From Neolewinella lacunae (GTDB lineage Bacteria > Bacteroidota > Bacteroidia > Chitinophagales > Saprospiraceae): a stretch of 64,000 bases of DNA. Position 1 is the stretch's first letter; each line of letters begins with the position of its first letter. A model generated the notes under the pieces. The model ran no database searches, was not told where the DNA came from, and worked only from the letters and a program-made list of their open reading frames with translations. A program made the position numbers and the translations under genes. Below, piece after piece: positions 4,231 to 61,700 of the stretch. The stretch is taken from contig NZ_JACSIT010000104.1 of the NCBI RefSeq assembly GCF_014349155.1, positions 1-64,000 of the forward strand, read 5' to 3'.

Positions 4231-5583
4231 ATGCAAGCTTCTTTTTCTCCGCTCCGCCGCTGGCTCGCGCTGCTTTTTATCGTCGGGCTGCTCCTGTTTG
4301 CGGCTTTCCTGTGGTTGCGGCCGTTGCTTAACATTGGCAGTGGCTACGCGGCCAAACACGCCTGTAGTTGCCACTTTTTGCAGGGCCGCGAACTGGAAGA
4401 AATCAGCACCCATGACCTGAATTTTTCCGTGCTGGGCTGGTTCAGTCTGGCGGTAGAGGGCCAAACGGTGCGCGCCAGTCTGCTGAGCCTGGTGGCGCGC
4501 GAGGCGCACTACCGTCCGGGCGTGGGCTGCACGCTGGTCAATGATCCTAACCAAGCCTTGGCACCAATTTTGGGCGCGGACGCAGGTGCTCCCCCCCGAC
4601 CCCCCGAAGGGGGGAGTAAGGACGAAGGAGCAATGCTCGTCAACCCAACGGAGACCACACCCGCCCTCACTGCCGCGCTGGATTTTGGCATGGAACCCGT
4701 CCCCGGCGGCGGCGCAAGGGGCATCGTCGTTTTGCAAGACGGCAAATTGCTGGCGGAAACCTACGCCCCCGGCTTTGACCGGACTACGCCCCTGTTGGGT
4801 TGGTCGATGACCAAAACCCTCACCGCTCTGCTGGTGGGCCACGTACTGCTGGCCCCCGACGGCAGCAACCTGGAGGAAGTCGTGAATCGCAAAAGACTTT
4901 ACCCCGCCTGGAACACCGACGCCCGGGCCAACATCCGCCTGGCCGACTTACTGCACATGAATTCCGGCCTGGCCTGGAACGAAGGTTACGGGAGCCTTAC
5001 CGACGCCACCATCATGCTCCACGAGCAGCCCGCCATGGCCGCCTACGCCAGTGGAATGCCCGCCGAGTTCGCCCCCGGAGAAACCTGGCGCTACTCCAGC
5101 GGCACTACCAATATCCTGGCTGATCTCGTCCAGCGCCAGCTCCCGCCCGGTACCGACCTGGCGACATACCTCCGGGCGTACTTTCGGCCCGTGGCGCCCA
5201 GCCTGCTCGTTGAGCCCGATCAATCCGGGCTGCCCGTCGGGAGTTCTTACGGATGGGCGACGGCCCAGGACTGGGCAAGACTCGGGCAATTCATGCTACA
5301 GGACGGCGTGTGGGGCGGAGATACGCTGTTGCCGCCGGGCTGGATCGACTGGCTGCAGCAACCCGCAGCGGGCAGCGAGGGTACTTACGGCGGGCAGCTC
5401 TGGCTCCCCGGGCCCGATATGCCCTCCCTGCCGCCCGATGCCTTCATGATGCGGGGATTTCAGGACCAGAGGGTATTCATCATCCCTTCCCGGCGGCTGG
5501 TTATTGCCCGCCTGGGCCACGGCGAGGACAAGGTGACGGACTTTGACGGCCTGGTCAGTCGCATCCTCGCGGCCGTAGAATAA
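4231..5583 (+). CDS. Serine hydrolase (class C beta-lactamase / EstB-like family)
   Basis: A 450-residue beta-lactamase-fold hydrolase anchored or exported by an N-terminal hydrophobic segment (about residues 10-30). The catalytic SxxK motif is Ser192-Met-Thr-Lys195 and the Tyr motif is Tyr288-Ser-Ser. A C-terminal HGED box lies where the third motif is expected. Such proteins are esterases, peptidases or amidases rather than true beta-lactamases. Residues about 112-137 (GADAGAPPRPPEGG and following) are encoded by a complete copy of the dispersed GC-rich element and look like an in-frame insertion between the N-terminal region and the catalytic domain. Confidence 0.85.
   Translation: MQASFSPLRRWLALLFIVGLLLFAAFLWLRPLLNIGSGYAAKHACSCHFLQGRELEEISTHDLNFSVLGWFSLAVEGQTVRASLLSLVAREAHYRPGVGCTLVNDPNQALAPILGADAGAPPRPPEGGSKDEGAMLVNPTETTPALTAALDFGMEPVPGGGARGIVVLQDGKLLAETYAPGFDRTTPLLGWSMTKTLTALLVGHVLLAPDGSNLEEVVNRKRLYPAWNTDARANIRLADLLHMNSGLAWNEGYGSLTDATIMLHEQPAMAAYASGMPAEFAPGETWRYSSGTTNILADLVQRQLPPGTDLATYLRAYFRPVAPSLLVEPDQSGLPVGSSYGWATAQDWARLGQFMLQDGVWGGDTLLPPGWIDWLQQPAAGSEGTYGGQLWLPGPDMPSLPPDAFMMRGFQDQRVFIIPSRRLVIARLGHGEDKVTDFDGLVSRILAAVE
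4572..4635 (+). repeat. Dispersed GC-rich element, copy 1 (long form, inside CDS)
   Basis: Core GGGCGCGGACGCAGGTGC at 4572-4589, then a C-run/G-run hairpin (CCCCCC GAA GGGGGG), then GAAGGAGCAATG at 4624-4635. It is nearly identical along its length to the copy at 14096-14158. It lies in frame inside the serine hydrolase gene. Confidence 0.85.
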
Positions 5584-5598
5584 TTTTATCTTCGCCTT

Positions 5599-5715
5599 AT
5601 GCAGCGCCCCTTCTTTCGTCCTTTTCCCCTGGCTTACGCTTATTTGCTGGGGGCACTTTTGTTGCTTCTCCTCCAGGGCTGCCGGGCGGCGGGCTGTGGT
5701 TGCCCAATGTATTAG
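5599..5715 (+). CDS. Very small Cys-rich lipoprotein
   Basis: A 38-residue reading frame starting ATG at 5599, 15 bases after the serine hydrolase stop. It has a basic/proline N-terminus, a strongly hydrophobic stretch (LLGALLLLLLQGC), a plausible lipobox LQGC and a short tail ending GCGCPMY. Tiny lipoproteins with a C-terminal CxCP-type tail are common but unannotated in Bacteroidota. The codons are free of rare features, but a chance frame cannot be excluded at this length. Function unknown. Confidence 0.5.
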   Translation: MQRPFFRPFPLAYAYLLGALLLLLLQGCRAAGCGCPMY

Positions 5716-5796
5716 CCAACCGGTAAGGAAGGCGGCCGCAGCAGGAAAAAAAGCCAAATGAGCGCGGGCAGAGAAAGATAAATGCCTTAAAGGCTC

Positions 5797-5804
5797 TACT
5801 TTTG
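5797..5804 (+). promoter_or_regulatory. Candidate -7 promoter box for aconitase
   Basis: TACTTTTG matches the Bacteroidota consensus TAnnTTTG. It would give a leader of about 155 nt before the aconitase ATG, and that leader contains a dispersed-element copy. No clear -33 TTTG is seen. Confidence 0.4.
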
Positions 5805-5863
5805 TCGACTTTCGCGCGGATGATGTGTTAGTAGGGCGGAAACAGGGCCGGGGTTCTTGCGGC

Positions 5864-5905
5864 CATTGCTCTGTTACGACCAACCTGGCACCTGCGACCG
5901 CGCCC
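5864..5905 (-). repeat. Dispersed GC-rich element, copy 2
   Basis: Reverse-strand copy with core GCACCTGCGACCGCGCCC at 5888-5905 and tail CATTGCTC at 5864-5871, in the predicted 5' leader of aconitase. Confidence 0.8.
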
Positions 5906-5964
5906 CGGCCGCACGCCGCAGCTACTACAAACGCCCACCAAAGCAGTAAAAGAAAAGTTGAAAC

Positions 5965-8238: not shown

Positions 8239-8271
8239 TTCTCCTCCCGCGCTAACGGCGGAATGCTACAG

Positions 8272-8314
8272 GCGGGTAACGGAAGCGATCGGCTTTCCGT
8301 TACCCGCTTTTTTT
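8272..8314 (+). terminator. Rho-independent terminator after aconitase
   Basis: A perfect 13-bp stem (GCGGGTAACGGAA at 8272-8284 with TTCCGTTACCCGC at 8295-8307), 10-nt loop and seven T residues. Confidence 0.92.
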
Positions 8315-12322: not shown

Positions 12323-12361
12323 CTTGCTCCTTGTCCCGTGGAGAGCACCTGCGGCCGCGCC
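12323..12361 (-). repeat. Dispersed GC-rich element, copy 3
   Basis: Core GCACCTGCGGCCGCGCC at 12345-12361 with tail TTGCTCC at 12324-12330. It lies just downstream of the three-gene toxin-antitoxin-chaperone operon. Confidence 0.8.
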
Positions 12362-12394
12362 AAAAAGAAAGTGGGACTGAGATTCGTACAACCG

Positions 12395-14095: not shown

Positions 14096-14158
14096 CATTG
14101 CTCCATGTCCTAACTCCCCCCTTCGGGGGGTCGGGGGGGAGCACCTGCGTCCGCGCCC
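14096..14158 (-). repeat. Dispersed GC-rich element, copy 4 (long form)
   Basis: Reverse-strand long form: core GCACCTGCGTCCGCGCCC at 14141-14158, GGGGGG/CCCCCC hairpin, tail CATTGCTCC at 14096. Near-identical to 4572-4635. Together with copy 3 it brackets the TA operon in the same orientation. Confidence 0.85.
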
Positions 14159-21649: not shown

Positions 21650-21688
21650 CCGCTCCTCCAAGCTCCCCCAGCACCTGCGGCCGCGCCC
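21650..21688 (-). repeat. Dispersed GC-rich element, copy 5
   Basis: Core GCACCTGCGGCCGCGCCC at 21671-21688; the left flank GCTCCTCCAAGCTCC is a degenerate tail. Lies between the T9SS gene and the methyltransferase. Confidence 0.75.
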
Positions 21689-23937: not shown

Positions 23938-23971
23938 TTAATGGTTCAAAGAACAAAAAGCGAAGCTTTTT
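23938..23971 (+). repeat. TTAGTGGTTCAAA hairpin element, copy 3
   Basis: TTAATGGTTCAAA followed by the hairpin AAAAAGCGAAGCTTTTT (23955-23971), again with a GCGAAGC core, as in the copies at 88 and 277. Confidence 0.6.
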
Positions 23972-24458
23972 AAAAGCTGGTATCCACAATCCGCAGCCGT
24001 TTGTACTGGCTGGTTTTGAACCGCTTCTGCCCCAAAAAGCGGTTGATCAGGTAGCCGCTGGCGAAGGAAGTGAGGGCAATGGTGGCGTCGCGGCCGGAGA
24101 AATTTGTCGTCGGGTCTTTGTCCGTAGCGTAGCCGATGAGGCCGATGCCGGCCCAGGCGGTGCCGAAGGTCATGAGGGAGTAGCCCGCAGCGGCCCCGAA
24201 AGTGCTGCCGAGGTGTACCGATTCAATCTCTTCCAAAAGGATGAATCGTTCGTTGATGACCAGTGCCTGGATGTCGGGCCGCATCTCCATAATGCGCCCT
24301 TCCTGCCAGAATTTATCGCCCTCCATCCGGAATTTCAGGGCCTCGCCCTCGTACATCCGCTCGGCCTTCGAGTCGGTCATCCGTTCAAAGAGGAGCACTT
24401 TTTGGGCGCGGACGCAGGTGCAGAGTAAGACCAGTAAGAGCAGGGTAAGGAAACGCAT
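23970..24458 (-). CDS. Exported small protein of unknown function
   Basis: A 162-residue protein with a signal peptide (MRFLTLLLLVLLCTCVRAQ) and a C-terminal half containing two hydrophobic segments (AAAGYSLMTFGTAWAGIGLIGY and a weaker one near ALTSFASGYLINRFLG). The mature N-terminus (KVLLFERMTD to WQEGRIMEM) looks like a small beta domain. The signal-peptide residues CTCVRAQ are encoded by a dispersed-element core. A near-consensus box TATCTTTC lies directly before the ATG, suggesting a nearly leaderless mRNA. No function is recognised. Confidence 0.6.
   Translation of the reverse strand: MRFLTLLLLVLLCTCVRAQKVLLFERMTDSKAERMYEGEALKFRMEGDKFWQEGRIMEMRPDIQALVINERFILLEEIESVHLGSTFGAAAGYSLMTFGTAWAGIGLIGYATDKDPTTNFSGRDATIALTSFASGYLINRFLGQKRFKTSQYKRLRIVDTSF
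24414..24431 (+). repeat. Dispersed GC-rich element, copy 6 (inside CDS)
   Basis: Core GGGCGCGGACGCAGGTGC, without a recognisable tail. Read on the minus strand it encodes the end of a signal peptide (CTCVRA). Confidence 0.75.
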
Positions 24459-26238: not shown

Positions 26239-27222
26239 TTATTTTTGTCGAACAAAAGTGGGAATCTCCTCACCGTCCAGGCCCATCGTGAAATACTGGA
26301 GCGTATCGTTAAAAGCACGGATGATGACGTGGCATTGTACGTCAAACTCGCCTTTTTCAATGAGGCAAAACTCGTTGGTCCCTCCCGCGCCACTAAAACC
26401 GCAGGCGGTTTCCTGGCAGCCCGGCAGGAATTCCAGTTTATTGCTTAGGGTAAGTGACCCGGCACGGTAGTACAAGACCTGGGTGGGCTGGAACTCCAGT
26501 TCCTCTTCGGGGTCAGCGACGGACCGCCAGCGGCCCAGGTAATTGGGAGGGGTGCGGCCCAGGTCAGTGGAAATGGAGATGACCACGGGGCGGGCCTTTC
26601 GCAGGGTCGGGTCGTCGCTTTTCAGCTCGGTGCCGTCACCCAGCAGTTCCATTGGCGTCTCCTCGCCTTCGGCGGTAAGGAGGAAGGAGGGAGAGAAACC
26701 AGCAGCGAAAGCCCCGCCGTTCCAGTTGACCACTTGCCCGCCATAATCCCAGCCGAAACCACTGATGGTGAATGGCTGCCCGTTGATTTTTTCTACCTCC
26801 CCAATGCTGGTACCGATGCTGAGGCCGTTGGTGCTCGTCCAGTCGGAGCGCATTTCTTCGCCCTCTTCGTAGTTGCCGGTGATGCGGATAAAGGAGGGGC
26901 GGAGGGTGTCGTAACTTTCGTTGTAATACAGCTCTGCCCTGCGCCGGGGGTTATCGGGGAAAAGGATAACGGCTTCTTCTTCGTAGCCTTCGCCGATGAA
27001 GATGGTGCCCAAGACGGCGCTGTCTCCATAAAGGGCCAGGACCTGCGACCGGGAGGCACTATCGGACACAATGGGCCCAAAGCGTTTTCCGGGCTCAAAG
27101 GTGAAATCGAGAATGCGGGCAGGTACTGCACTGTTGGCGTCTACCACGGGGCCCTCCGCGTTTTTACAGGCGGCAAAGGCCGTAGCAAGGGCAATAAGAA
27201 GGATGAATCTGGGGGTGGACAT
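26239..27222 (-). CDS. Lipoprotein of unknown function
   Basis: A 327-residue lipoprotein with lipobox FAAC (MSTPRFILLIALATAFAAC). The body has two segments: residues about 40-190 with the phrase IGTSIGEVEKINGQPFTISGFGWDYGG, which resembles the repeating fold of small SmpA/BamE-like or beta-lactamase-inhibitor-like domains, and a beta-rich C-terminal part containing three Cys. Codirectional with the glycosidase, 47 bases upstream of it. No function assigned. Confidence 0.6.
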   Translation of the reverse strand: MSTPRFILLIALATAFAACKNAEGPVVDANSAVPARILDFTFEPGKRFGPIVSDSASRSQVLALYGDSAVLGTIFIGEGYEEEAVILFPDNPRRRAELYYNESYDTLRPSFIRITGNYEEGEEMRSDWTSTNGLSIGTSIGEVEKINGQPFTISGFGWDYGGQVVNWNGGAFAAGFSPSFLLTAEGEETPMELLGDGTELKSDDPTLRKARPVVISISTDLGRTPPNYLGRWRSVADPEEELEFQPTQVLYYRAGSLTLSNKLEFLPGCQETACGFSGAGGTNEFCLIEKGEFDVQCHVIIRAFNDTLQYFTMGLDGEEIPTFVRQK

Positions 27223-27438
27223 GGGTGCATACTATGTTGCTGCGAAGGTAAAAAATGGGCAGGCAATTTTTATGAGCACCCGATAAGAAGTTTGCTGGGC
27301 GCGGATAGCGTGTACCGGCCGGGGAGGGTGTTGCGGCGGCCCGCCCGTTACCGCAGCGTACCCTATATTGAGCCCTCTTTTCCTCCCTTTACCCCCTTCC
27401 TCCTTTACTTCCTTTCTCCTTTATTAAAGCACACCCCA

Positions 27439-28686
27439 ATGTTCCGTCTCACCCTCCTTGCCTTGCTGGCCGGATTCCTCTGCACCTGCGGCCGCGCCCC
27501 CCAGGAAGACCCTTCGCCAATGACCGACGCCGAGCTGCGCGCCCACGCCAATGAGCTGGCCCACCGCTACCTGATTACCGACGGACACGTGGACCTGCCC
27601 TACCGCCTGAAGGTGAAAAATTTCCGCCTGGACAAAGAATACCTCGGCATCCCCATCGAGACCAGCGAGGGGGATTTTGACTACGTCCGCGCCGTAGAAG
27701 GCGGGCTTGACGCGCCGTTTATGTCCATTTACATTCCCAGCGGACTCCAGGCCGAACCCGGCGCCAGCCCCGCCCTGGCCGATAGCCTCATCGCCATGGT
27801 CCGGGGCATCGCCGAGGCCCACCCCGATAAATTCCGCATCGCCACCAGCCCCGCCGAACTGGAACAGAATTTCCGCGACAGCGTCATGAGCCTGCCCATG
27901 GGTATGGAAAACGGCAGCCCGATCGAAGACAAAATCGAACGCGTCGCGGAATACCACGCCAAGGGCATCCGCTACATCACCCTGACCCACGGCAAAGACA
28001 ACCTGATCTGCGACAGCAGCTACGATACCACCCGCACCCACGGAGGCCTGAGCGAATTCGGCCGCGAGGTGGTCCGCGAAATGAACCGCGTAGGCATCAT
28101 GGTCGACATCAGCCACGTGAGCGACTCCACCTTCTGGCAAGTCGTCGAAATGACCGACGTGCCCGTGATTGCCAGCCACTCTTCGGCCCGCAAATTCACC
28201 CCCGGCTTCGAGCGCAACATGGACGACGCCATGATCAAGCGCCTGGGGGAAGAGGGCGGCGTGATCCAGATCAACTTCGGCTCCACCTTCCTGGATGGTA
28301 AACTGCGCATCCGCCAAGACAGCCTGCGGGGCATCCTTCAGGAACGCCTCGCGGCAGCGGACCTCCAGTACCGCGACGAGGCCGCCAAACCCCTCATCGA
28401 AGCCTTTGAAAAGGAATTTCCCACCCTTTACGCCGACGTAGAAACGGTAGCCGACCACATCGACCACGTCGTCGCCCTCGCGGGAATTGACCACGTGGGC
28501 CTGGGCTCCGATTTCGACGGCGTAGGGGATTCCCTGCCCACCGGCCTGAAAGACGTCTCCGATTACCCCAACCTGATCTACACCCTGCTCAAACGGGGCT
28601 ACTCCGACGACGACATCCAAAAAATCTGCTCCGGCAACGTCCTCCGCGTATGGCGGGCCGTGGAAGCGGCCGCTACGGCACAGTAA
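27439..28686 (+). CDS. Membrane dipeptidase (peptidase M19) lipoprotein
   Basis: A 415-residue zinc dipeptidase of the renal-dipeptidase family. The metal ligands lie in TDGHVDLPY near the N-terminus, and the downstream SHSSARK and GSDFDGV blocks are intact. The signal peptide is MFRLTLLALLAGFLCTCGRAP, with Cys available for lipidation. Its last residues (CTCGRAP) come from a dispersed-element core, so the element has supplied the export-signal cleavage region. The ATG at 27439 is chosen for the signal peptide; the frame is open far upstream but not coding-like. Confidence 0.92.
   Translation: MFRLTLLALLAGFLCTCGRAPQEDPSPMTDAELRAHANELAHRYLITDGHVDLPYRLKVKNFRLDKEYLGIPIETSEGDFDYVRAVEGGLDAPFMSIYIPSGLQAEPGASPALADSLIAMVRGIAEAHPDKFRIATSPAELEQNFRDSVMSLPMGMENGSPIEDKIERVAEYHAKGIRYITLTHGKDNLICDSSYDTTRTHGGLSEFGREVVREMNRVGIMVDISHVSDSTFWQVVEMTDVPVIASHSSARKFTPGFERNMDDAMIKRLGEEGGVIQINFGSTFLDGKLRIRQDSLRGILQERLAAADLQYRDEAAKPLIEAFEKEFPTLYADVETVADHIDHVVALAGIDHVGLGSDFDGVGDSLPTGLKDVSDYPNLIYTLLKRGYSDDDIQKICSGNVLRVWRAVEAAATAQ
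27482..27499 (-). repeat. Dispersed GC-rich element, copy 7 (inside CDS)
   Basis: Exact core GCACCTGCGGCCGCGCCC within the signal-peptide codons of the dipeptidase; no tail. Confidence 0.8.
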
Positions 28687-30344: not shown

Positions 30345-30384
30345 GGGCGCGGCCGCAGGTGCCAGGCAAGTTGAAGGAGCAAAG
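30345..30384 (+). repeat. Dispersed GC-rich element, copy 8
   Basis: Core at 30345-30362, then CAGGCAAG and tail TTGAAGGAGCAAAG (30371-30384). Nearly identical to copy 9 over its full length. Confidence 0.85.
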
Positions 30385-32354: not shown

Positions 32355-32395
32355 GGGCGCGGCCGCAGGTGCCGGGCAAGTTGAAGGAGCGATGG
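32355..32395 (+). repeat. Dispersed GC-rich element, copy 9
   Basis: Core at 32355-32372, then CGGGCAAG and TTGAAGGAGCGATGG at 32381-32395. Confidence 0.85.
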
Positions 32396-33322: not shown

Positions 33323-34726
33323 ATGAAAGAAAGCTACAAACACTTACCTGCCAGGTACTTCTGGCCAGTTTTATTTTTCCTGGCCGTGTTCATTTCTGGA
33401 TGTCAGCCCGACGATGACGATATCTTTGACGCTGAGCTCCCTTCCCCTGCGGCCATCGACGCTGAAGTGGCCCTGCGCTACCACGAGCTGTTCCTGGACC
33501 TGGAGCGCTTCACCCCTGGTTACCGCCCGCCGGTATCGGCCCGTGCCGCTGCCTACGTTTCCTGGATCGGTTACGAGACCCTGGTGCCCGCCATGGGCGG
33601 CAGCAACTCGCTGGCCCCCCACTTTAACGTTAGCGGCCTGCCCGAGCCCGAGCCCGGCCGCCCCTACCACTGGCCAACGGCCCTGGTGGAAGCCTACACG
33701 CAGTCGCTGGAATACTTCTTTCCCAATGCTCCGGCTGAACGTCTCTTCGCCATCTACGAATTGCGCAACGAGTTCTTTGAAATCTACAAGCAACAGGTTT
33801 CCCACGAAACCTTCACCCGCTCTTCCGCCTACGGCCGGGAGATGGCCGCCGTCATCTGTGCCTGGTCGGCTACCGATGCTGCTGGCCACGAAGCTTACCT
33901 GCGCAACAGCGACCCCACCTACGTCCCACCAACTGGCCCGGGATTGTGGCAGCCGACTTTCCCTGACTTCACCCCCGCCCTGCTGCCCCGCTGGGGTACT
34001 GTCCGCACTTTTGCTGCCGACGAGACCGACGTCATTCCCCCGCCCCTGGAGTACAGCACCGATCCCAGCTCCGCCATCTACCAGGAGGCCCTGACGGTGC
34101 GCAACATGGTCGTCGAAATCAAAGCCGGTGGCCTGGAAGAAGACCGATGGATCGGGGAATTCTGGAGTGACGATTGTCCCATCCTGACCTTCACCCCCGC
34201 TGGCCGCTGGTATGCAGTGGCCAACCAGCTGGTGCAGGGTGAAAACCTCCGCCTTGACCGGGCCGTTACCCTTTACGCCCACCTTGGCATGGCGCTCAAC
34301 GATGCGGGCGTACGCGCGTGGGCCGAGAAATACCGCTACAACTACGAGCGGCCGATCGATTACATCCGCCGCGTCATGCCCGGAAATGAAGACTGGAACA
34401 CCATCATGTGCCCCGATGGCTCCGGAAACTACTTCACGCCACCTTTCCCGGCCTACCCCTCCGGGCACGCCACCTTTGGCGCGGCAGCCGTGGTAACCTT
34501 CGAAAAATTCTTCGGCACCAATGTGGGGATGACCGACCGCTGCCACGAAGGCCGTACGGAGTTCCGGGGTGACCCCCGCACCTTCGCCCGCTTCCGCGAC
34601 ATGGCCATCGAAAATGGCTACTCCCGCATCCCCCTTGGCGTTCATTTCCAAATGGACTCCGACTTTGGCCTCGACCTGGGCTACCGGATCGGAACCAAAG
34701 TCAATGCCCTGCCATGGGGACGGTAG
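33323..34726 (+). CDS. Vanadium-haloperoxidase/PAP2-superfamily lipoprotein
   Basis: A 467-residue lipoprotein (FISGCQ lipobox) of the vanadium-dependent haloperoxidase / PAP2 phosphatase fold. The core motif is YPSGHATFG (Pro379, Ser380, Gly381, His382), followed by the second His motif RIPLGVHF (His441). The long N-terminal helical region (YRPPVSARAAAYVSWIGYETLVPAM) is usual for bacterial VCPO-type proteins. Whether it oxidises halides or is a phosphatase cannot be read from sequence. A consensus promoter box lies 19 bases upstream. The next gene overlaps its end by 13 bases. Confidence 0.87.
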   Translation: MKESYKHLPARYFWPVLFFLAVFISGCQPDDDDIFDAELPSPAAIDAEVALRYHELFLDLERFTPGYRPPVSARAAAYVSWIGYETLVPAMGGSNSLAPHFNVSGLPEPEPGRPYHWPTALVEAYTQSLEYFFPNAPAERLFAIYELRNEFFEIYKQQVSHETFTRSSAYGREMAAVICAWSATDAAGHEAYLRNSDPTYVPPTGPGLWQPTFPDFTPALLPRWGTVRTFAADETDVIPPPLEYSTDPSSAIYQEALTVRNMVVEIKAGGLEEDRWIGEFWSDDCPILTFTPAGRWYAVANQLVQGENLRLDRAVTLYAHLGMALNDAGVRAWAEKYRYNYERPIDYIRRVMPGNEDWNTIMCPDGSGNYFTPPFPAYPSGHATFGAAAVVTFEKFFGTNVGMTDRCHEGRTEFRGDPRTFARFRDMAIENGYSRIPLGVHFQMDSDFGLDLGYRIGTKVNALPWGR

Positions 34727-36759: not shown

Positions 36760-36777
36760 GCACCTGCGGCCGCGCCC
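36760..36777 (-). repeat. Dispersed GC-rich element, copy 10
   Basis: Exact core GCACCTGCGGCCGCGCCC between the S41 peptidase and the ABC ATPase genes; left flank GGCTCCTAACCTG is a partial tail. Confidence 0.8.
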
Positions 36778-40327: not shown

Positions 40328-40349
40328 GCACCTGCGGTCCATGCGGCCC
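40328..40349 (-). repeat. Degenerate dispersed GC-rich element
   Basis: GCACCTGCGG then TCCAT then GCGGCCCC: the core interrupted by about five bases. Listed as a decayed copy. Confidence 0.4.
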
Positions 40350-40475: not shown

Positions 40476-40493
40476 GCACCTGCGGCCGCGCCC
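40476..40493 (-). repeat. Dispersed GC-rich element, copy 11
   Basis: Exact core GCACCTGCGGCCGCGCCC; the left flank CGGGGAGCCTCGCCCG is unlike the usual tail. Confidence 0.8.
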
Positions 40494-41380: not shown

Positions 41381-41938
41381 ATGCAAGGAATGACCGACCT
41401 GGAACTGGTCCGGGCCTTCTGCGCCGAAGACCGGCGGCAGGCCTTGGGGATCCTCTACCAGCGCTACGGCCATCTGGTGGTGGGCCTGTGCCTGGACTAC
41501 CTCAAGGAACGGGAAGCGGCGCGCGACGCGACAATGGAGATTTTCGAGAAGGTCACGCTCAAAGTCTGCGACCAGCCCATCGAAACCTTCCGGGCCTGGC
41601 TCTTCTACACCAGCCGCAACTACTGCATCGACCTGTTGCGCAAGCAAATCCGGGAACGGGAGCGCCAGGAAAAAATACCCGGGCCGGAGCTTATGGAAAG
41701 TGAGGCCGGGGAGCGTCCCTTAAGTGAAGCAAGGCTGGCCCTGCTGCCCGAGGCGCTGGCCCAACTGCCAGTTGCCCAGGCCCGTTGCGTCCGCCTTTTT
41801 TATTTATCAGGGATGACTTACGTACAAGTTTGCGAGCGTACCGGCTACGACCTCAAGCAGGTAAAAAGCTACCTGCAAAACGGCCGCCGCAATCTGCGTA
41901 TTCACTTAGAAAAACTGGCGCATGAGCGATCAGAGTAA
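41381..41938 (+). CDS. ECF-type sigma factor
   Basis: A 185-residue sigma-70 family regulator with region 2 at about residues 20-90 (ILYQRYGHLVVGLCLDYLKEREAARDATMEIFEKV, TFRAWLFYTSRNYCIDLLR) and region 4 at about 125-180 (ALAQLPVAQARCVRLFYLSGMTYVQVCERTGYDLKQVKSYLQNGRRNLR). It is the first gene of a four-gene array; the next gene starts within its last 17 bases. A box reading TATTTTGG lies about 30 bases upstream. The product probably directs transcription of this array or of an envelope-stress regulon. Confidence 0.9.
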   Translation: MQGMTDLELVRAFCAEDRRQALGILYQRYGHLVVGLCLDYLKEREAARDATMEIFEKVTLKVCDQPIETFRAWLFYTSRNYCIDLLRKQIRERERQEKIPGPELMESEAGERPLSEARLALLPEALAQLPVAQARCVRLFYLSGMTYVQVCERTGYDLKQVKSYLQNGRRNLRIHLEKLAHERSE

Positions 41939-42725
41939 ACAAGAAAGGGAAAAATGGCTCCGGGGCAGCGCGCCCGCAGGTGGCGACGACGACTTTGCCC
42001 GCCACGCCGCGCGCGGCCGCCAGGAACTGGCTTCCGAGGAGGAGGCCAGTGCTTTGCTGGCTGAGCTGGACGGCCTGCTCGCCACGCGCTTCGGGGCTGC
42101 ACCGCCGCTGGCGCAAACGGACTTGGGCGCGGCCGCAGGTGCCGAAATAAAGACAGGGAGCAAGGCACACCAAACCCGGGTGCGTCCGCTAAGCCGGTGG
42201 TGGACCGCCGCAGCTGCCGTATTGCTGCTCGTGGCCGCCGGCCTCTGGTACACCAGCCAGGGAACCGGACCGACGCCGGAAGAAGCCTACGCCCAGGCCT
42301 TCACCCCCTACGCCAACGAGCTCAGCGGACGCAGCATGGGCGATACCCCCGAGACCCCCGAACGCAGCGCCGACCTGGAGGCCGCCCTCCTGGCCTACGA
42401 CCGCCGCGACTACGCTGCTGCGGCGACGTTCTTTGCCGATTACCTCAACACGGCACCTGCGCCCGCGCCCGCAAACGCCACCGCCGCCCGCCTGTACTAC
42501 GGCATCAGTTTGCTGGCCGCCGGCAACGCGACGACCGCCGACACCATTCTGGCTCCGCTGGAAAGCGACCCCCGCTACGGCCCGCCCGCCCGCTGGTACC
42601 GCGCCCTGGCCCTCCTGCGCAAAGGAGACCTGCCCGCCGCCCGCCTGGCCCTCGAAAGCATCATCAACTCGGCCGAATCTCCCTTCCGCAGCCGCGCCGA
42701 AAGCCTCTTAGCAATCATTTCTTAG
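41922..42725 (+). CDS. Single-span membrane TPR protein, probable anti-sigma factor
   Basis: A 267-residue protein: cytoplasmic acidic/helical N-terminus (about 85 residues), one transmembrane helix (WWTAAAAVLLLVAAGLWY), and an extracytoplasmic part with TPR-like helix pairs (DLEAALLAYDRRDYAAAATFFADYL, TAARLYYGISLLAAGNATTADTIL, ARWYRALALLRKGDLPAARLAL). Overlap with the sigma gene (17 bases) and this topology suggest an anti-sigma factor, although no ZAS zinc motif is seen. Two dispersed-element cores lie in frame (encoding GAAAGA and APAPAPA). Confidence 0.65.
   Translation: MSDQSKQEREKWLRGSAPAGGDDDFARHAARGRQELASEEEASALLAELDGLLATRFGAAPPLAQTDLGAAAGAEIKTGSKAHQTRVRPLSRWWTAAAAVLLLVAAGLWYTSQGTGPTPEEAYAQAFTPYANELSGRSMGDTPETPERSADLEAALLAYDRRDYAAAATFFADYLNTAPAPAPANATAARLYYGISLLAAGNATTADTILAPLESDPRYGPPARWYRALALLRKGDLPAARLALESIINSAESPFRSRAESLLAIIS
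42125..42166 (+). repeat. Dispersed GC-rich element, copy 12 (inside CDS)
   Basis: Exact core GGGCGCGGCCGCAGGTGC at 42125-42142 with a degenerate tail (AGACAGGGAGCAAGG). In frame just before the transmembrane helix of the anti-sigma-like gene. Confidence 0.8.
42453..42470 (-). repeat. Dispersed GC-rich element, copy 13 (inside CDS)
   Basis: Core variant GCACCTGCGCCCGCGCCC, in frame in a loop between two TPR-like units; it encodes APAPAP. Confidence 0.6.
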
Positions 42726-46858: not shown

Positions 46859-46897
46859 TGCTCCTTCGTCATCACCCGAGCACCTGCGCCCGCGCCC
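46859..46897 (-). repeat. Dispersed GC-rich element, copy 14
   Basis: Core variant GCACCTGCGCCCGCGCCC at 46880-46897 with tail TGCTCCTTCG at 46859-46868; between the CHAT and SulP genes. Confidence 0.75.
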
Positions 46898-48861: not shown

Positions 48862-48904
48862 GGGCGCGGCCGCAGGATGCCGGGAAATGATAAATGAGCA
48901 ATGT
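48862..48904 (+). repeat. Dispersed GC-rich element, copy 15
   Basis: Core with the extra A (GGGCGCGGCCGCAGGATGC) at 48862-48880, followed by AAATGAGCAATG at 48892-48903. It forms most of the rimP leader downstream of the attenuator. Confidence 0.85.
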
Positions 48905-54017: not shown

Positions 54018-55034
54018 TCATTCGGGTGGTTTGCGCCACTGCCGGCTGCCGATGCGGAAGATGAGCTGCTGCTGGCCGGGGAAAGATGCTACGTAACGCC
54101 GTAGCAAAGCCGTCTGGCTGACTAAGCTGGCCGGGCTAAGGGCCTCGTACCGCAGGAGGTCGCCCCGGTAGAGGTAAAGGCCACCGAGGTAGGTGGAAGA
54201 TTTGACGGCGTAGCGGGTGGGGCTGAGGCGCACAAAGCGGCTGGTGTCGGCTAGTTGGGTCAGGTCGGGCTCGTTGAGGAGGTAAACGAGTTGGTCCTGG
54301 CGGTAGACAGCGGCCCAGTCGTAGACGGCCACGGCCAGATCCAGGGGCAGGGGGTAGGCGGGCTGGCCTGCGAGGTAGCCCTTAAGGATGTTGGTATCGA
54401 GGATGGAATTTTCGGTGGCCCAGTCGTCGAGATCGCCGGTGTTGTAAGCCATCAGGGTGGCGCGGCGGACGGGCGGAATGCCCTGGCTGGAACGATCCCG
54501 GTACTGGTGGAGGCGTACGGTGCAGGTCAGCAAGAGTCCGGGGCGGAGTTCTTCCACTGCGCGTAGCAAGGCAAAATATTGCACCTGCGTCCGCGCCGTC
54601 CAATCACAGTCCATTTGCAATTCTGCGTACCCTGGCGCGAGGATACGATCGAGCAGGCGCAGGATGTCCTGGGCCAGGCGGGGAATTTCGCTGGCGGGCA
54701 GTTGCTGCAAGACCTCGTTGGTGAGGAAGACGACGGGGATGAGGGGGGGCAGGCCCGCCGAATCCCGGGCGGTGAGCAGTGCCGTGGGTTCCGCCCGGCC
54801 ATTTTCCCAGGCTACGTCAAAAGCCTTTACGTAAAGCCGCGTGCTTCCCGTTTCCTCAAGCATCTGCCGGGCCGTGGAATCCAGGACGAGGGTGCTTTCC
54901 CAGTGATAGAAGTTGGTTTGCAAGGGCTCCGGTGCTGCTGGCTGGCAGGCCATGCCCAGCAACAGGGGCAGCGCCGCCAGCCAAAAGGAGATTGGAGGAA
55001 CAGGGCAAGGCACGGTCCGCTCAAATTTCCACAA
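54018..55034 (-). CDS. Lipoprotein with DUF3142-like TIM-barrel
   Basis: A 338-residue lipoprotein: SFWLAALPLLLGMAC gives a lipobox at GMAC. The mature part (NFYHWESTLVLD, LQMDCDWTARTQVQYFALLRAV, TVRLHQYRDRS, PVRRATLMAYNTGDLDDW) resembles the DUF3142 family, a glycosidase-like barrel of unknown activity. No ATG lies upstream of the signal peptide: TTG at 55034 (used here, overlapping the upstream gene by 14 bases) or GTG at 55013 are the options. A dispersed-element core (54581-54598) is in frame, encoding ARTQV. Confidence 0.65.
   Translation of the reverse strand: MWKFERTVPCPVPPISFWLAALPLLLGMACQPAAPEPLQTNFYHWESTLVLDSTARQMLEETGSTRLYVKAFDVAWENGRAEPTALLTARDSAGLPPLIPVVFLTNEVLQQLPASEIPRLAQDILRLLDRILAPGYAELQMDCDWTARTQVQYFALLRAVEELRPGLLLTCTVRLHQYRDRSSQGIPPVRRATLMAYNTGDLDDWATENSILDTNILKGYLAGQPAYPLPLDLAVAVYDWAAVYRQDQLVYLLNEPDLTQLADTSRFVRLSPTRYAVKSSTYLGGLYLYRGDLLRYEALSPASLVSQTALLRRYVASFPGQQQLIFRIGSRQWRKPPE
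54581..54598 (-). repeat. Dispersed GC-rich element, copy 17 (inside CDS)
   Basis: Core GCACCTGCGTCCGCGCCG (last base differs) within the DUF3142-like gene; no tail. Confidence 0.55.
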
Positions 55035-56453: not shown

Positions 56454-56572
56454 TAGTTCATAGTTCATAGTTCATAGTTCATAGTTCATAGTTCATAGTT
56501 CATAGTTCATAGTTCATAGTTCATAGTTCATAGTTCATAGTTCATAGTTCATAGTTCATAGTTCATAGTTCA
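56454..56572. repeat. 17-unit heptanucleotide tandem repeat
   Basis: Seventeen perfect copies of TAGTTCA (119 bases) between the nuclease and LysE-type genes, upstream of the nuclease start. The bases just after it (TTGAACTACTGAACTACTGAAC) contain the inverted unit TGAACTA, so a large hairpin is possible. A tandem array without spacers, not a CRISPR. Confidence 0.97.
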
Positions 56573-56612
56573 CTAGTGACGGGACTATTGAACTACTGAA
56601 CTACTGAACCAA

Positions 56613-57296
56613 CTACACCATCCACACCCGTACGCCCAGGATGAGGCCAAAACATCCCAGGGCGAGCGCGCCGGTGCGCTGGACCTTGAGGAGTACTTCG
56701 GGGCGCAGGATGTCGCGCAGTTTCCTGGCCGCCACTATTTTTATGGTATCCGTCAGGATGATGGTGCCCAGGACGCCAGCGTAGATGGCCCAGGCCTGGG
56801 GCTCGGATAGTTGCCGGTCGTGCACTTGGGTGATGGAGAAAAAGGACCAGAAACCGACGGTGAAGGGGTTGAAGGTGTTGATGGCCAATCCCTGGGCGAA
56901 GGCGGAGAGTACCCCGCGCTTGGTGGGCATGATGCGGTCTCCGGATAGGTCAGGCGGGGAACGGAACCACATGAATAGCGCCGATCCGACGAGGATGAGA
57001 CCGCCGATGCTGCCTACGATTTCGTTGAAGTAGGTATGGTTCATGACCTTGCTCAGTCCGCCCATCCCCAGGTGGATGGCCCAGATGAAGGCTGCGTCGC
57101 TGCACCAGATGCCGAGGGCTCCTGCCAATGCGGCCAGCGTCCCTCTCCGCAGGCTGAGTTGCAGCAACAGCACCAGCAGGGGCCCCGCAAGTAAAGACAG
57201 GAGGAGACCGGCACGAACGCCTTCCAGAATGTAGCCAGTAAGATTAATGATCCGCTGTTTTGACGAGATAACGCAGTGCGGGGCCGGAAGGATCAT
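56613..57296 (-). CDS. LysE-family exporter
   Basis: A 227-residue inner-membrane protein with about six hydrophobic helices, in the LysE/RhtB pattern: GVRAGLLLSLLAGPLLVLLLQLSLRRG at the start, LAINTFNPFTVGFWSFFS in the middle and a C-terminal span (GALALGCFGLILGVRVW). LysE proteins export amino acids or similar small molecules; the substrate is unknown. The start is uncertain: the first 18 residues are not LysE-like and translation may begin nearer IINLTGYILEG. Confidence 0.83.
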   Translation of the reverse strand: MILPAPHCVISSKQRIINLTGYILEGVRAGLLLSLLAGPLLVLLLQLSLRRGTLAALAGALGIWCSDAAFIWAIHLGMGGLSKVMNHTYFNEIVGSIGGLILVGSALFMWFRSPPDLSGDRIMPTKRGVLSAFAQGLAINTFNPFTVGFWSFFSITQVHDRQLSEPQAWAIYAGVLGTIILTDTIKIVAARKLRDILRPEVLLKVQRTGALALGCFGLILGVRVWMV

Positions 57297-57817: not shown

Positions 57818-57863
57818 GGCAGTACAACGGAGGAAATGCGGAGAGGTTGTGGGGGCTGGCACT

Positions 57864-57871
57864 TACCTTTG
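57864..57871 (+). promoter_or_regulatory. Candidate -7 box of a leaderless transcript
   Basis: TACCTTTG ends four bases before the ATG at 57876, so the mRNA would start at or within a few bases of the start codon. Confidence 0.5.
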
Positions 57872-57875
57872 TGCC

Positions 57876-58073
57876 ATGCAAAAGACCCTGGTTCTGCTTG
57901 GCGTACTCATCGTCGCCGTTGCCGTTTACTGGCCCATCCTGCGGGTAGCGCGGGAGGACATTGCCGCCCGTGCCCGGGCCGGATTGAGTAACAGCATGCT
58001 TTACGCGGTGCTTCTGCTCCCGCTGTTCGGTCCCTTGATTTACCTGGTGGTGCGGCGCTACTTCCGCGTTTAA
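57876..58073 (+). CDS. Small two-helix membrane protein (PLDc_N-like)
   Basis: A 65-residue protein with two transmembrane segments (LVLLGVLIVAVAVYWPIL and YAVLLLPLFGPLIYLVVRRYF). The last part (LLLPLFGPLIYLVVRR) resembles the N-terminal PLDc_N membrane motif of cardiolipin synthases, here as a stand-alone peptide. A consensus promoter box lies directly upstream. Its stop overlaps the convergent glycosylase gene by four bases. Confidence 0.65.
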   Translation: MQKTLVLLGVLIVAVAVYWPILRVAREDIAARARAGLSNSMLYAVLLLPLFGPLIYLVVRRYFRV

Positions 58074-58753
58074 CCTTCCAGCGCCAGTTGGCTGGCGGCG
58101 ACGAAACGCTCCAGATAGTCCGCTAAGTAGCGGCGCTTGTACTGCATGACGAAGCGGGGATGGGCCAGGGGGATGACCTGGCGAAACCAGCCGTACTGTT
58201 CGTTGAGGGCGGTGATGAAGGCGTGGTTTTTTCCTTCGCCCAGGACGAGCAGGTGATCGCGGCGGCCGCCGAAAGCCAGTTGGGCTTCGAAGTTGGCGAT
58301 GATGTGGGGGAGGACCGCTGCCTGGAGGGCTTTGCTGTCGTAGTAATTGTAATTTTTGCCGTCTTTGGTAAAGCCCAGCGGGCAGGCGGAGGTGATGTAA
58401 AAATCCCGGTAAAAAGCTTCAGGGCCGCCCATGGCGTCGATCCAGCGGTAGATGAATTCCGAGCTCAACTCCGGCCGTGAGGTAAAGGGGTGCTCAATGG
58501 CGCAGGCTTCGCGGAGCGTCTTGGGGCCGGTGAAGGGGACGCCCGTGACGCCCGCCCCGAAGCGGCCGGGGTTGATGCCCATGACGAAGATCCGGGGCCG
58601 GGCGTCGGCAAAAAACTTGTGGTAGAAAGCGGTCATGGTGGCCTGGGTGTCGGGGGCGTGGTAGGGGAAAATCAGGTCTACGCCCGCCGGTAATGACCAG
58701 TCGGGTTGCAGGGTTTGGAAGTGGTAGTGAAGGACTCGTTCGCCGAAGGTCAC
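58070..58753 (-). CDS. SMUG2-like uracil-DNA glycosylase family protein (DUF4918)
   Basis: A 227-residue protein of the SMUG2/DUF4918 group in the uracil-DNA glycosylase superfamily. The active-site region is FVMGINPGRFGAGVTGVPFTGP, and a second motif region around PLAHPRFVMQYKRR corresponds to the family's late His loop. Base-excision repair is the likely role; specificity is unknown. The GTG at 58753 is preferred because family alignment begins near TFGERVL; a longer frame to 58840 would run into a dispersed-element copy. Confidence 0.8.
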   Translation of the reverse strand: MTFGERVLHYHFQTLQPDWSLPAGVDLIFPYHAPDTQATMTAFYHKFFADARPRIFVMGINPGRFGAGVTGVPFTGPKTLREACAIEHPFTSRPELSSEFIYRWIDAMGGPEAFYRDFYITSACPLGFTKDGKNYNYYDSKALQAAVLPHIIANFEAQLAFGGRRDHLLVLGEGKNHAFITALNEQYGWFRQVIPLAHPRFVMQYKRRYLADYLERFVAASQLALEG

Positions 58754-58811
58754 CAGGCAGGGGGGATTGGGGTGGGTGTAAGGTAAGGCCTTTTGGCGGA
58801 GGCTGGGCCGT

Positions 58812-58855
58812 CCATTGCTCCATTGTCCGCAGCCCCGCATCCTGCGGCCGCGCCC
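58812..58855 (-). repeat. Dispersed GC-rich element, copy 18
   Basis: Core with the extra base, GCATCCTGCGGCCGCGCCC (58837-58855), and tail CCATTGCTCCATTG (58812-58825). Between the divergent glycosylase and CtpA genes. Confidence 0.85.
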
Positions 58856-58925
58856 CGGTAGCTCCCCGTCAATAATCTATCCCGGCGCTGGCGCGTTATC
58901 AATGGGCAAGTAAAAAAAGCAAAGT

Positions 58926-60560
58926 ATGTCTCCGCGCAAAAAAGTCTTCGTCGGTGTCTTTTCCGGCCTCGCGTTCCTGGTGCTGACCGCCGCCACGGTG
59001 AGCCCCCTCAACGACAAGTACTTCGAAATCATGAAGGCCATTGAGGTGTACACCAACGTTTACAAGGAGGTCAATACCTACTACGTGGACGACATCGAGC
59101 CCAACAAACTCATGCGCACCGGCATCGAGGCGATGGTAGGCTCCCTCGATCCCTACACCAATTACATCAGTGAAACGGACGTGGAACTGGCCCGCCTGCG
59201 GCAAAGCGGCAAATACCAGGGCATTGGCGCCGAGCTGGAATACATCGACGGACTGCCCACCATCATGACCCTCTACCAGGGGCAGCCCGCCGACGCCGCC
59301 GGCCTGAAAACCGGCGACCGCCTCCTGCAAATTGACGGCCGCGAAACCACCGGCTACAACCTGGAGCAACTCGAGGAAATCATGCGCGGCTTCCCCGGCA
59401 CCACTATGGAACTCACCATCGAACGCCCCGGCAGCGGGCAGCAGGAGCTCAAATTGCTGCGTGGCGACGTCAACATCCCCAACGTGCCCTACTACGGTAT
59501 GCTGGAAAACAACGTGGGCTACGTGGCCCTCACCACCTTCACCCAGCAGGCGGGCAAGAACGTCCGCGATGCCGTAGCCAAGCTCCGCGCCGAAAACCCC
59601 AACCTGGCCGGCGTGGTGCTGGACCTGCGCGACAACGGCGGTGGACTGCTCAACGAAGCTGTGGACATCGTCAATATCTTCGTCCCGAAAGACGAACTCA
59701 TCGTCACCACCAAGGGAAAAGTGCGGGAATGGGACCGCAGCTACAAAACGAACAACAATCCGCTGGACCTGGAGATTCCCGTTGCCGTACTCATCAACGA
59801 CCACTCTGCTTCCGCCTCCGAGATCGTCAGCGGTTCCCTGCAAGACCTCGACCGGGCCGTCCTGATCGGCCAGCGCAGCTATGGCAAGGGCCTGGTGCAA
59901 AACATCATGGAGACGGGCTACGGCAGCCGGGTAAAGATTACGACGGCCAAGTACTACATCCCCAGCCAGCGCTGCATCCAGGCGCTGGAATACCGCGACG
60001 GCAAGCCCTACGATATCCCCGATGCGCAGCGGGCCGTCTTCAAAACCCGGGCGGGCCGCAAGGTGCTCGACGGGGGTGGGGTAGCCCCCGATATTGAGCT
60101 GCCCATCCTGGGCGGTAAGGCCATCACGCAGGGCCTGCTGGAAGACCACGTCATCTTCGACTTCGTCAACGAGTGGGTCGCCGACCACCCCACGATCGAC
60201 TCAGTGGCCAATTTCCATTTTAAAGACTGGGATCGCTTTGAGGCCTTCCTTCAGCGCGGCGAATTTGAGTACACTTCCAAAGCCGAGAAAGCCCTCGAAA
60301 AGGCCCTGGAAGAGGCCAGGGAAGAAGGCTACGACATCAGCAGCCAGCTGGCCGCCATCCAGCAGCAAGTCGACCGCGAGCAACTGGCCGCCATCCAGAG
60401 CTACCGGGAGGAAATCATCAGCATCATCGAAAAGGAAATTGCCGGGCGCTACTACTACCAGCGGGGGCAGGTCCAGATGGGCCTGCGCAACGACCGCGAG
60501 GTCCAGGAAGCCATTGCCGTGCTCAACGACCCGGCCCGCTACGCGGCGCTGTTGAAGTAA
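58926..60560 (+). CDS. C-terminal processing protease (S41A, CtpA-like) with PDZ domain
   Basis: A 544-residue exported protease: N-terminal signal/anchor (VFVGVFSGLAFLVLTAATV), a PDZ domain (about residues 95-185, YQGIGAELEYIDGLPTIM, PADAAGLKTGDRLLQIDG), and the S41 catalytic core with the SASASE box (residues 294-299) and catalytic Lys321 in SYGKGLVQ. A long helical C-terminal extension follows (about residues 400-544). CTPs trim C-termini of envelope proteins. It lies 12 bases before lpxK. Confidence 0.93.
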   Translation: MSPRKKVFVGVFSGLAFLVLTAATVSPLNDKYFEIMKAIEVYTNVYKEVNTYYVDDIEPNKLMRTGIEAMVGSLDPYTNYISETDVELARLRQSGKYQGIGAELEYIDGLPTIMTLYQGQPADAAGLKTGDRLLQIDGRETTGYNLEQLEEIMRGFPGTTMELTIERPGSGQQELKLLRGDVNIPNVPYYGMLENNVGYVALTTFTQQAGKNVRDAVAKLRAENPNLAGVVLDLRDNGGGLLNEAVDIVNIFVPKDELIVTTKGKVREWDRSYKTNNNPLDLEIPVAVLINDHSASASEIVSGSLQDLDRAVLIGQRSYGKGLVQNIMETGYGSRVKITTAKYYIPSQRCIQALEYRDGKPYDIPDAQRAVFKTRAGRKVLDGGGVAPDIELPILGGKAITQGLLEDHVIFDFVNEWVADHPTIDSVANFHFKDWDRFEAFLQRGEFEYTSKAEKALEKALEEAREEGYDISSQLAAIQQQVDREQLAAIQSYREEIISIIEKEIAGRYYYQRGQVQMGLRNDREVQEAIAVLNDPARYAALLK

Positions 60561-60572
60561 ATCCTTTTTCCC

Positions 60573-61640
60573 TTGGTCCAATCCATCCTGGCTAAAGCAC
60601 TGCTTTCTCCCATCTCGCTGCTTTACGGCCTGGGAGTGAGCTTTCGTAACTGGACGTACCGCCGTGGCCTCCAGAAGAGCATTTCCTTTTCCGTGCCCGT
60701 CATCAGTGTCGGGAACCTCAGCGTGGGGGGGGCGGGCAAGACGCCCCACATCGAGTACCTCATCCGGGGGCTGGATCCTTACCTCAACATCGCGACGCTG
60801 AGCCGGGGCTACCGGCGCAAGACCCGGGGGTTCCTTCGGGTGCGGCCGGGCATGAACGCCGAAGAAGTGGGGGATGAGCCCTTGCAGTACGCGCGGAAAT
60901 TCCCCGAAGTGGTCGTGACCGTAGCCGAGGAGCGGGCCTTCGCGATCCCGGAAATCATGGGCCAGCGGCCGGATACCCAGTTGATCTTGCTCGATGATGC
61001 CTTCCAGCACCGTTCCGTAAAACCGGGCCTCAACATCCTGCTGACCGAATTTTCCAAGCCCTTCACCCGCGATTTTCTGCTGCCCAGCGGCCGCCTGCGG
61101 GAGTGGCGTTCGGGCTACGAGCGGGCCGACATCATCATCGTATCCAAGTGTCCGCCGACGCTCGACCGGGCCACGGCCGATGCCCTGCGCGACGAGATCG
61201 CCCCACTGCCCCACCAGCGGGTCTTTTTTTCTTACTACGACTACGCCGCACCCTACTACCTGCTCGATCACCGCTACCGCCTCAAGATGGATGGCAACGT
61301 CAATATGCTGCTCATTTCGGCCATTGCCGGGACGGATTACCTGCTCCAACACCTGCGGGGGCAGAGCCCCCTGGTGCAGAGCCTGGAGTTTGAAGACCAT
61401 CACTATTTTGACCGTGGCGACCTCGGTACGCTCTTGCTCCGTTTCCGCGAACTGCCCGGGGAGCACAAGGCCATCATCACCACCGAAAAAGACGCGATGC
61501 GACTGGAGTTGCACAAGGCGTTCATCGCCCAGGAACGGCTGCCGGTTTTCGTGCTACCGCTGGCGGTGCGTTTTCACTTCGGCGAGGGGCCGGAATTTGA
61601 CGTGCTCGTGCGGGACTTTCTCCTCGAATTCAAGGCTTAG
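60573..61640 (+). CDS. lpxK: Tetraacyldisaccharide 4'-kinase
   Basis: A 355-residue inner-membrane-associated kinase adding the 4'-phosphate in lipid A synthesis. The P-loop GGAGKTP (residues 52-58) follows the family N-terminus ILAKALLSPISLLYGLGVSFRNWTY and VPVISVGNLSVGG. Later blocks ILLDDAFQHRSVKP and LLPSGRLREW are typical. No ATG is available near the N-terminus; TTG at 60573 gives the right length. The gene shows this is a lipid-A-making Gram-negative. Followed by a dispersed-element copy. Confidence 0.95.
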   Translation: MVQSILAKALLSPISLLYGLGVSFRNWTYRRGLQKSISFSVPVISVGNLSVGGAGKTPHIEYLIRGLDPYLNIATLSRGYRRKTRGFLRVRPGMNAEEVGDEPLQYARKFPEVVVTVAEERAFAIPEIMGQRPDTQLILLDDAFQHRSVKPGLNILLTEFSKPFTRDFLLPSGRLREWRSGYERADIIIVSKCPPTLDRATADALRDEIAPLPHQRVFFSYYDYAAPYYLLDHRYRLKMDGNVNMLLISAIAGTDYLLQHLRGQSPLVQSLEFEDHHYFDRGDLGTLLLRFRELPGEHKAIITTEKDAMRLELHKAFIAQERLPVFVLPLAVRFHFGEGPEFDVLVRDFLLEFKA

Positions 61641-61667
61641 GCTTCCGCTTTTTTCGGGGAATTTATG

Positions 61668-61700
61668 GGGCGCGGCCGCAGGTGCCGGGGGAAGTTGAAC
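61668..61700 (+). repeat. Dispersed GC-rich element, copy 19
   Basis: Exact core at 61668-61685, then GGGGGAAGTTGAACG as a partial tail; 48 bases before the acyltransferase ATG. Confidence 0.8.

Follow-up and report, generated by a model that had tools for sequence, protein, structure and literature searches.

Uptake sequences, referred to as DNA uptake sequences (DUS) or uptake signal sequences (USS), are clade-specific, lie on both strands and show an extragenic surplus and partly inverted pairs (PMC1939737, in the part of the text available). The accessible text of another source places them in the Pasteurellaceae and Neisseriaceae (PMC7811141), and those of the Neisseriaceae are described, in sources available in part, as having dialects. 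In the Bacteroidota, Riemerella columbina prefers its own DNA; the available part of that study lists frequent k-mers and leaves a role as uptake sequences open (PMC7965970), so that an uptake reading of a motif from this phylum is not far-fetched. Among the open-licence papers listed in the searches made, neither a report of a motif such as the one described here in Saprospiraceae nor a proven uptake sequence in Bacteroidota appeared. The present analysis concerns a dispersed, GC-rich DNA motif of Neolewinella lacunae, a bacterium of the marine Lewinella group, noticed in positions 1 to 64,000 of contig NZ_JACSIT010000104.1 (hereafter the window; 64 kb, 58.6% G+C) and followed in the genome that contains the window (G000; 5.8 Mb, 154 contigs, 99% complete), in congeners and in phages.

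The motif is clade-specific and strand-aware, is made mostly by substitution in genes, differs between congeners and is also carried by phages. Newly observed is a mutual exclusion of same-orientation copies that reaches about 3 kb and does not affect opposite ones. As far as the uptake literature is accessible, the likeness to DUS and USS extends to a strong over-representation in one clade, the use of both strands, in-gene copies arising by substitution, hundreds to thousands of copies, an extragenic surplus, some inverted pairs, dialects and clade restriction. The motif differs from them in being longer and bipartite (about 40 nt), in its occurrence in phages, in a same-orientation exclusion of 3 kb compared with 0.3 kb in one USS-type genome, and in a host genome without any secretin or type IV pilin match; a role in uptake would be assigned here by analogy. 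Like Chi sites, it is oriented, species-specific and present every few kb (67 Chi sites were counted in 250 kb of Escherichia coli). Known Chi sites are 5-8 nt long, whereas this motif spans 18-40 nt, comes with no RecC and no recognised AddB, and is distributed unlike E. coli Chi. Rickettsia palindromic elements and repetitive extragenic palindromes (REP) with their associated tyrosine transposases (RAYT) are likewise dispersed, in-frame and found as paired inverted copies. Here, in contrast, in-gene copies are mostly substitution-made, four copies fold no better than shuffled sequences and no matching Y1 transposase is found.

Anatomy and distribution of the motif

The exact 15-mer GGGCGCGGNCGCAGG occurs 940 times in the N. 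lacunae genome, 470 times on each strand, and the reversed pattern is absent. A search of 855 kb of the genome with a less strict core, one mismatch being tolerated, gave 237 copies, which scales to about 1,600. The motif is bipartite: a core, GGGCGC-NNN-CGCAGG(A)TGC, is followed about 15 nt further on by GAGCA, the whole measuring approximately 40 nt. Its 5' edge is sharp at GGG, and T is enriched upstream (0.39-0.45 at positions -1 to -4 in 117 copies from 455 kb). The second conserved block, already recognised in the original prediction, corresponds to a tail AGGAGCAAKGG of 12.6 bits. Among 233 copies, 72% exceed a tail score of 8 bits, compared with 4.2% of 1,000 randomly drawn stretches; the model was trained on the same 233 copies. 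The strict form GAGC[AG] was found within 75 nt of the core in 134 of these copies, with a main distance peak at 14-17 nt and two further peaks, at 37-38 nt and at 58 nt. A long form with a C-run/G-run hairpin had also been described, and a hairpin CCCCCCC-GA-CCCCCC-GAA-GGGGGG indeed lies between core and tail in 43 of the 233 copies, where it lengthens the gap by about 22 or 43 nt. Within some copies, the hairpin alone seems to have been inserted. This hairpin (window 4590-4616 and 14114-14140) is itself a dispersed palindrome; 43 of the 62 in the sample directly follow a core, and it is sometimes doubled.

In the window, the core pattern GGGCGCGGNCGCAGGTGC, scanned with up to three mismatches, gave 22 matches as against a mean of 0.89 and a maximum of 3 in 100 shuffled controls, which confirms the repeat. 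The core is present at all 19 main positions originally proposed, and both orientations are seen. The coordinates are right except that 24414 should read 24404 and 58837 should read 58838. At 40328, taken for a decayed copy, the right half is kept and the rest of the core is not (6 mismatches). Two further matches, at 34578 and 56660, look like chance. The motif features of the window are as follows.

4572-4589, + strand: core, in gene 4231-5583 (LGADAGA)
4590-4616, + strand: hairpin insert TCCCCCCCGACCCCCCGAAGGGGGGAG separating core and tail of copy 4572
4624-4635, + strand: tail block GAAGGAGCAATG of copy 4572
5888-5905, - strand: core
12345-12362, - strand: core, 1 mismatch
14141-14158, - strand: core, long form, with the hairpin insert at about 14114-14140
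21671-21688, - strand: core
24404-24421, + strand: core, antisense in the signal-peptide-like stretch CTCVRAQ, gene 23970-24458
27482-27499, - strand: core, antisense in the signal-peptide-like stretch CTCGRAP, called open reading frame (ORF) 26734-28686
30345-30362, + strand: core and tail
32355-32372, + strand: core and tail
36760-36777, - strand: core
40476-40493, - strand: core
42125-42142, + strand: core, in gene 41922-42725 (LGAAAGA)
42453-42470, - strand: core, antisense in gene 41922-42725 (APAPAP)
46880-46897, - strand: core
48862-48880, + strand: core with an extra A (AGGATGC), immediately 5' of a start codon
53950-53968, + strand: core with an extra A, and tail
54581-54598, - strand: core, in gene 54018-54923 (ARTQVQ)
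58837-58855 (true start 58838), - strand: core with an extra A
61668-61685, + strand: core
63585-63602, - strand: possible diverged copy, 3 mismatches

As originally proposed, six window copies lie inside called genes (4572, 24404, 27482, 42125, 42453 and 54581), two of them, 24404 and 27482, in stretches resembling signal peptides. The copy at 48862 has counterparts 5' of apparently the same gene in four relatives, as judged by eye. A known structured RNA was rejected: the window has no Rfam match at gathering thresholds, and neither the single strands of four window copies (z -1.3 to +1.4) nor five consensus-like strings (z -0.8 to +1.6) fold better than shuffles. A candidate GCG...CGC mini-hairpin with a variable loop has a stem too invariant for a covariation test.

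The exact 15-mer was found in all 20 congeners (1 to 475 copies each) and in none of 39 genomes of other genera. A scan of the GTDB species collection for core and tail returned 41 stretches, all but one from the Lewinella group or other Bacteroidota (Neolewinella agarilytica, persica, marina, antarctica and aurantiaca; Lewinella; Saprospiraceae or Bacteroidia metagenome-assembled genomes). The lone outlier is a contig of a gammaproteobacterial metagenome-assembled genome that holds a single copy. Two congeners with one exact copy each have different dispersed motifs. That of G010 is CTAACAAAGTAGCA, given also as TTTTTGGCTAACAAAGTAGCA[AG]TGCT, with the word CAAAGTAGCA repeated 23 times in 100 kb; that of G001 is GGCGGCGGAGCGCAGGTA, given also as TTTTTGCGGCGGAGCGCAGGTAG, with the word CCTGCGCTCC 14 times in 140 kb. 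Variants occur in G013 (GGGCGCTGCCGC[AG]GGTGC) and in G011 (GGGCGGGGCCGC[AC]GGTGC). Because of their placement, their length and their T-rich upstream flank, these motifs may be regarded as dialects of one system.

Other repeats were noticed in the same genomes. Window positions 56454-56579 form a 7-nt tandem satellite, TAGTTCA, whose word ACTATGAACT occurs 65 times in a 791-kb genome sample outside the window. In G001, L179:18498-18900 carries an array of units of about 65 bp (GGACTGCAGCGCAGTCC ... GTGCAAAGCGCGGAA) whose ends vary, so that it does not clearly qualify as a simple satellite. In G013 (L186-L193), the main dialect is accompanied by a further frequent motif, AAGTCGTCGGACGA / TCGTCCGACGA. 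Another repeat, AGGTTGAGGCTTTT, is found in G004 (L117 with L151 and L170), and GACGCTATGCGTC palindromes in G015 (L108, L118, L148 and L173).

The motif is also carried by phages. A scan of IMG/VR with the N. lacunae pattern returned 83 stretches, many of them GC-rich chance matches; repeated copies were found in 23 related loci and one 44.6-kb contig. The motif-bearing viral loci variously encode terminase, portal, head protease, tape measure and tail fibre proteins. In a whole-record search with up to one mismatch, the three richest phages contained 8 sites in 38.7 kb, 11 in 44.6 kb and 9 in 30.9 kb (8, 9 and 5 sites without mismatch), a host-like density, and five further records contained 2 in 32.1 kb, 3 in 17.8 kb, 1 in 16.3 kb, 2 in 14.8 kb and 2 in 43.7 kb. 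The reversed control was absent from all eight. The shared motif suggests that these phages infect Lewinella-type hosts. The G010 dialect gave 8 single matches in IMG/VR that look like chance, and the G013-type pattern 69 single matches.

Substitution in genes and conservation of the core

Our own hexamer-score gene caller places 152 of the 237 copies between genes, in about 16% of the DNA; another 83 are inside genes and 2 cross an edge. The in-gene copies are antisense in 48 cases and sense in 35. The frame reading GRGRRC is used once among the 83; other frames read GAAAGA, APAAAP, ARPQVQ, HLRPRP or, antisense in signal peptides, CTCVRAQ. The use of frames and of both gene directions is the behaviour of a DNA-level motif that proteins must tolerate.

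The original prediction likened the pattern to the Rickettsia palindromic elements, which also insert in frame. Four recognised proteins with in-gene copies, not chosen at random, were aligned to Protein Data Bank (PDB) chains. The motif region is free of gaps against the best chain in HisD, PheT (two motifs in one gene) and an HmuV-type ABC protein, the latter showing gaps near the site against a second chain; a MiaB-type protein has small gaps at the motif region. In a wider test, the surroundings of all 83 in-gene sites were compared with stretches of the same genome, of relatives and of the first viral scan. Fifty-nine alignments cross a motif site, at 29 of the 83 sites, and in 37 of them (21 sites) the partner stretch has no motif even when one mismatch is allowed. 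In the 15 residues surrounding the site, 24 of these 37 have no gap, 6 have gaps of 1-2 residues and 5 gaps of 3-4; at least one gap-free alignment exists at 14 of the 21 sites. These counts include some homologues that are distant paralogues, a locus (L107) carrying a more degenerate motif and the probable chance match at 56660. The gap-free alignments to homologues without the motif indicate that in-gene copies arise mainly by substitution. As judged from such alignments, then, most in-gene copies appear to have been created without insertion. The intergenic copies, which are the majority, may arise in the same way. The original description of a dispersed sequence that is GC-rich, specific to the genus and partly in frame is right; the insertion of Rickettsia-palindromic type that it suggested is not supported.

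At one phage-gene site, compared in five phages, core identity is 1.00 as against 0.39 over 60 nt on each side. Around window copy 42453, identity among eight loci, each from a different species, is 0.94 at the fixed core positions and about 0.45 in the flanks; in the seven other species the counterpart of this copy sits at roughly the same point, in a linker that shows small indels. Both comparisons are ungapped and were made at hand-picked sites found via the motif; at these two sites, one host and one phage, the core is conserved against diverged flanks.

Exclusion between same-orientation copies over about 3 kb

Adjacent copies in the N. lacunae genome are in opposite orientation in 164 cases and in the same orientation in 66. 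For adjacent pairs closer than 3 kb, the figures are 96 opposite and 11 same (p = 4e-18). Relative to random placement preserving the genic and intergenic shares (60 runs), 20 same-orientation pairs lie below 3 kb where 107.9 are expected, whereas opposite-orientation pairs number 99 for an expected 113.7. Each strand carries one copy about every 7 kb, + and - copies being intermixed along the contigs. Of the 24 pairs less than 300 bp apart, 21 are arranged tail to tail. Among neighbours more than 1 kb apart, diverging pairs are somewhat commoner (75 vs 48, p = 0.02), in line with what the balance of the close converging pairs demands.

The exclusion recurs in congeners and phages. Same-orientation pairs below 3 kb are absent from G013 (11.9 expected) and number 2 in G010 with the strict pattern (9.7 expected). 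Six species pooled have 2 same and 14 opposite pairs, and 15 selected phage loci, some of them related, have 1 same and 9 opposite. The control genome G320, Pasteurellaceae-like by its 370 uptake-motif matches (core AAAGTGCGGT, 150 sites in 293 kb), shows same-orientation exclusion below 300 bp only (1 vs 10.3 expected), with 99 pairs at 0.3-3 kb where 85.5 are expected. The Chi sites of the E. coli sample show a same-orientation excess below 3 kb (48 vs 26.6 expected). In these controls the 3-kb exclusion is lacking, hence it belongs to the motif under study.

A general instability of direct repeats was rejected as the cause of the exclusion: when other repeats of at least 18 bp in the N. lacunae genome lie 0.1-3 kb apart, most of them are direct (161, as against 14 inverted, including repeated protein parts). 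At 3-6 kb, 4 direct and 15 inverted repeats were counted. Gene orientation was likewise rejected as the cause of the alternation, tandem gaps showing no preference (43 same, 41 opposite). Non-tandem gaps do lean, with counts of 20 to 7 in convergent gaps and 15 to 26 in divergent ones.

Possible functions of the motif

We tentatively interpret the repeat as a DNA recognition motif kept by selection or biased transfer, i.e. a genus watermark working like uptake sequences, a reading to which we give somewhat less than an even chance. On this reading the repeat is not a transposon. The motif would accumulate by base substitution and be kept by selection or biased transfer. A cell protein would read it strand-specifically, perhaps on single-stranded DNA, and DNA bearing it would preferentially be taken up, transferred or spared; homologous recombination would then spread alleles bearing it. 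Phages may retain the motif because they are exposed to that machinery as well. Reading on a single strand is suggested by the tolerance for hairpins that add 22 or 43 nt between core and tail: a palindrome folding out of a single strand would keep core and tail close, which is one hint in this direction. The machinery would have to differ from the DUS/USS type because neither a secretin (PF00263) nor an N-methyl pilin (PF07963) has a match in the 99% complete genome. The chances are about equal for and against the motif representing an undescribed class of watermark in Bacteroidota: long, bipartite, read on one strand, with dialects, shared with phages, subject to same-strand exclusion over 3 kb and served by an uptake or DNA-processing machine without pilus or secretin.

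Several observations weigh against the watermark interpretation. The missing secretin and pilin matches are among them, and ComEC, present in 21 of 21 genomes, is also present in 10 of 14 controls and therefore says little. Uptake by Haemophilus influenzae is unaffected by orientation (PMC1939737, in its accessible part), and the uptake-type control genome has no 3-kb exclusion. Biased transfer alone does not obviously explain an exclusion that is nearly complete and orientation-specific, nor is a host-like density in phages expected from transformation alone. In G010, the exclusion is not clear when the lax pattern is used (17 same-orientation and 22 opposite pairs closer than 3 kb). In two of the 37 alignments to motif-free stretches 8 residues or more are missing, which fits insertion, besides the five gapped by 3-4. 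No clear motif was seen in samples of G004, G006, G008 and G020 (60-80 kb) nor in smaller samples (22-26 kb) of G012, G016 and G017. All seven congeners still have some exact 15-mers; not every congener is thus explained.

A rival reading is a Chi-like role, in which the DNA-end-processing helicase-nuclease of the cell reads an oriented site on one strand and turns degradation into repair, phages carrying the site to survive. The orientation-specific behaviour, the per-strand spacing, the presence and conservation in phages and the species-specific sequence all fit reading on one strand, and such a role accounts for orientation and phages better than uptake does. It fails, however, on the E. 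coli control, where same-orientation sites are in excess rather than excluded, and finds no clear support in the known enzymes. RecC (PF04257) has no match in any of the 21 genomes. PDDEXK_1 gave two matches, a UvrD-fused RecB/AddA-like protein of 1,060 residues and a separate frame of 196 residues, and no AddB was recognised in the three neighbouring ORFs scanned beside the former. Moreover, the motif greatly exceeds known Chi sites in length, and its + and - copies alternate without separation along the contigs. We consider a Chi-like role unlikely. The near-complete, orientation-specific exclusion, with a length like that of an exposed single strand, could also point to an enzyme that nicks or recombines DNA in a strand-specific manner and has the motif as its target (an HUH or Y1 transposase, a relaxase or a recombinase). 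Same-strand pairs closer than about 3 kb would lose the intervening DNA, so that direct pairs would be purged while inverted ones survive. In favour of this are the persistence of other direct repeats of at least 18 bp, which makes the effect motif-specific, and the position of the hairpin inserts between core and tail. Acting on some 1,600 sites would nonetheless be costly, and a substitution origin leaves such an enzyme no role in spreading the motif. Matches to the Y1 transposase (PF01797) occur in 20 of 21 genomes with no relation to copy number; the congener without one, G018, has 475 exact copies. A copy is present in 13 of 30 Y1 loci, which mostly span about 3.3 kb, but copies do not clearly flank the Y1 genes. 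A target of this kind is, in our estimation, distinctly unlikely.

The Y1 results led to the rejection of a RAYT/REP system, and the linked transposase that the original prediction suggested looking for was not found, Y1 being the only family searched. An insertion element of the Rickettsia-palindromic, REP or miniature inverted-repeat type, with in-frame insertions, would agree with the high copy number, both orientations, the intergenic excess and the close tail-to-tail pairs. Its likelihood is very small in view of the gap-free in-gene alignments, the different motifs of congeners, the matching places in several species and the lack of any mobilising gene in the Y1 search. The per-strand spacing would further suit a directional site of a chromosome-structure or replication protein, such as a loop anchor or priming site. 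This is made quite improbable by the host-like density in three phage records, the intermixing of + and - copies and the different motif in congeners.

Any mechanism has to account for the exclusion over 3 kb, which is specific to orientation and gives a quantitative signature. If the watermark interpretation is true, genome tagging would have evolved independently in a bacterium without type IV pilin or secretin match, and the motif would help in studying the recognition of self DNA in Bacteroidota.

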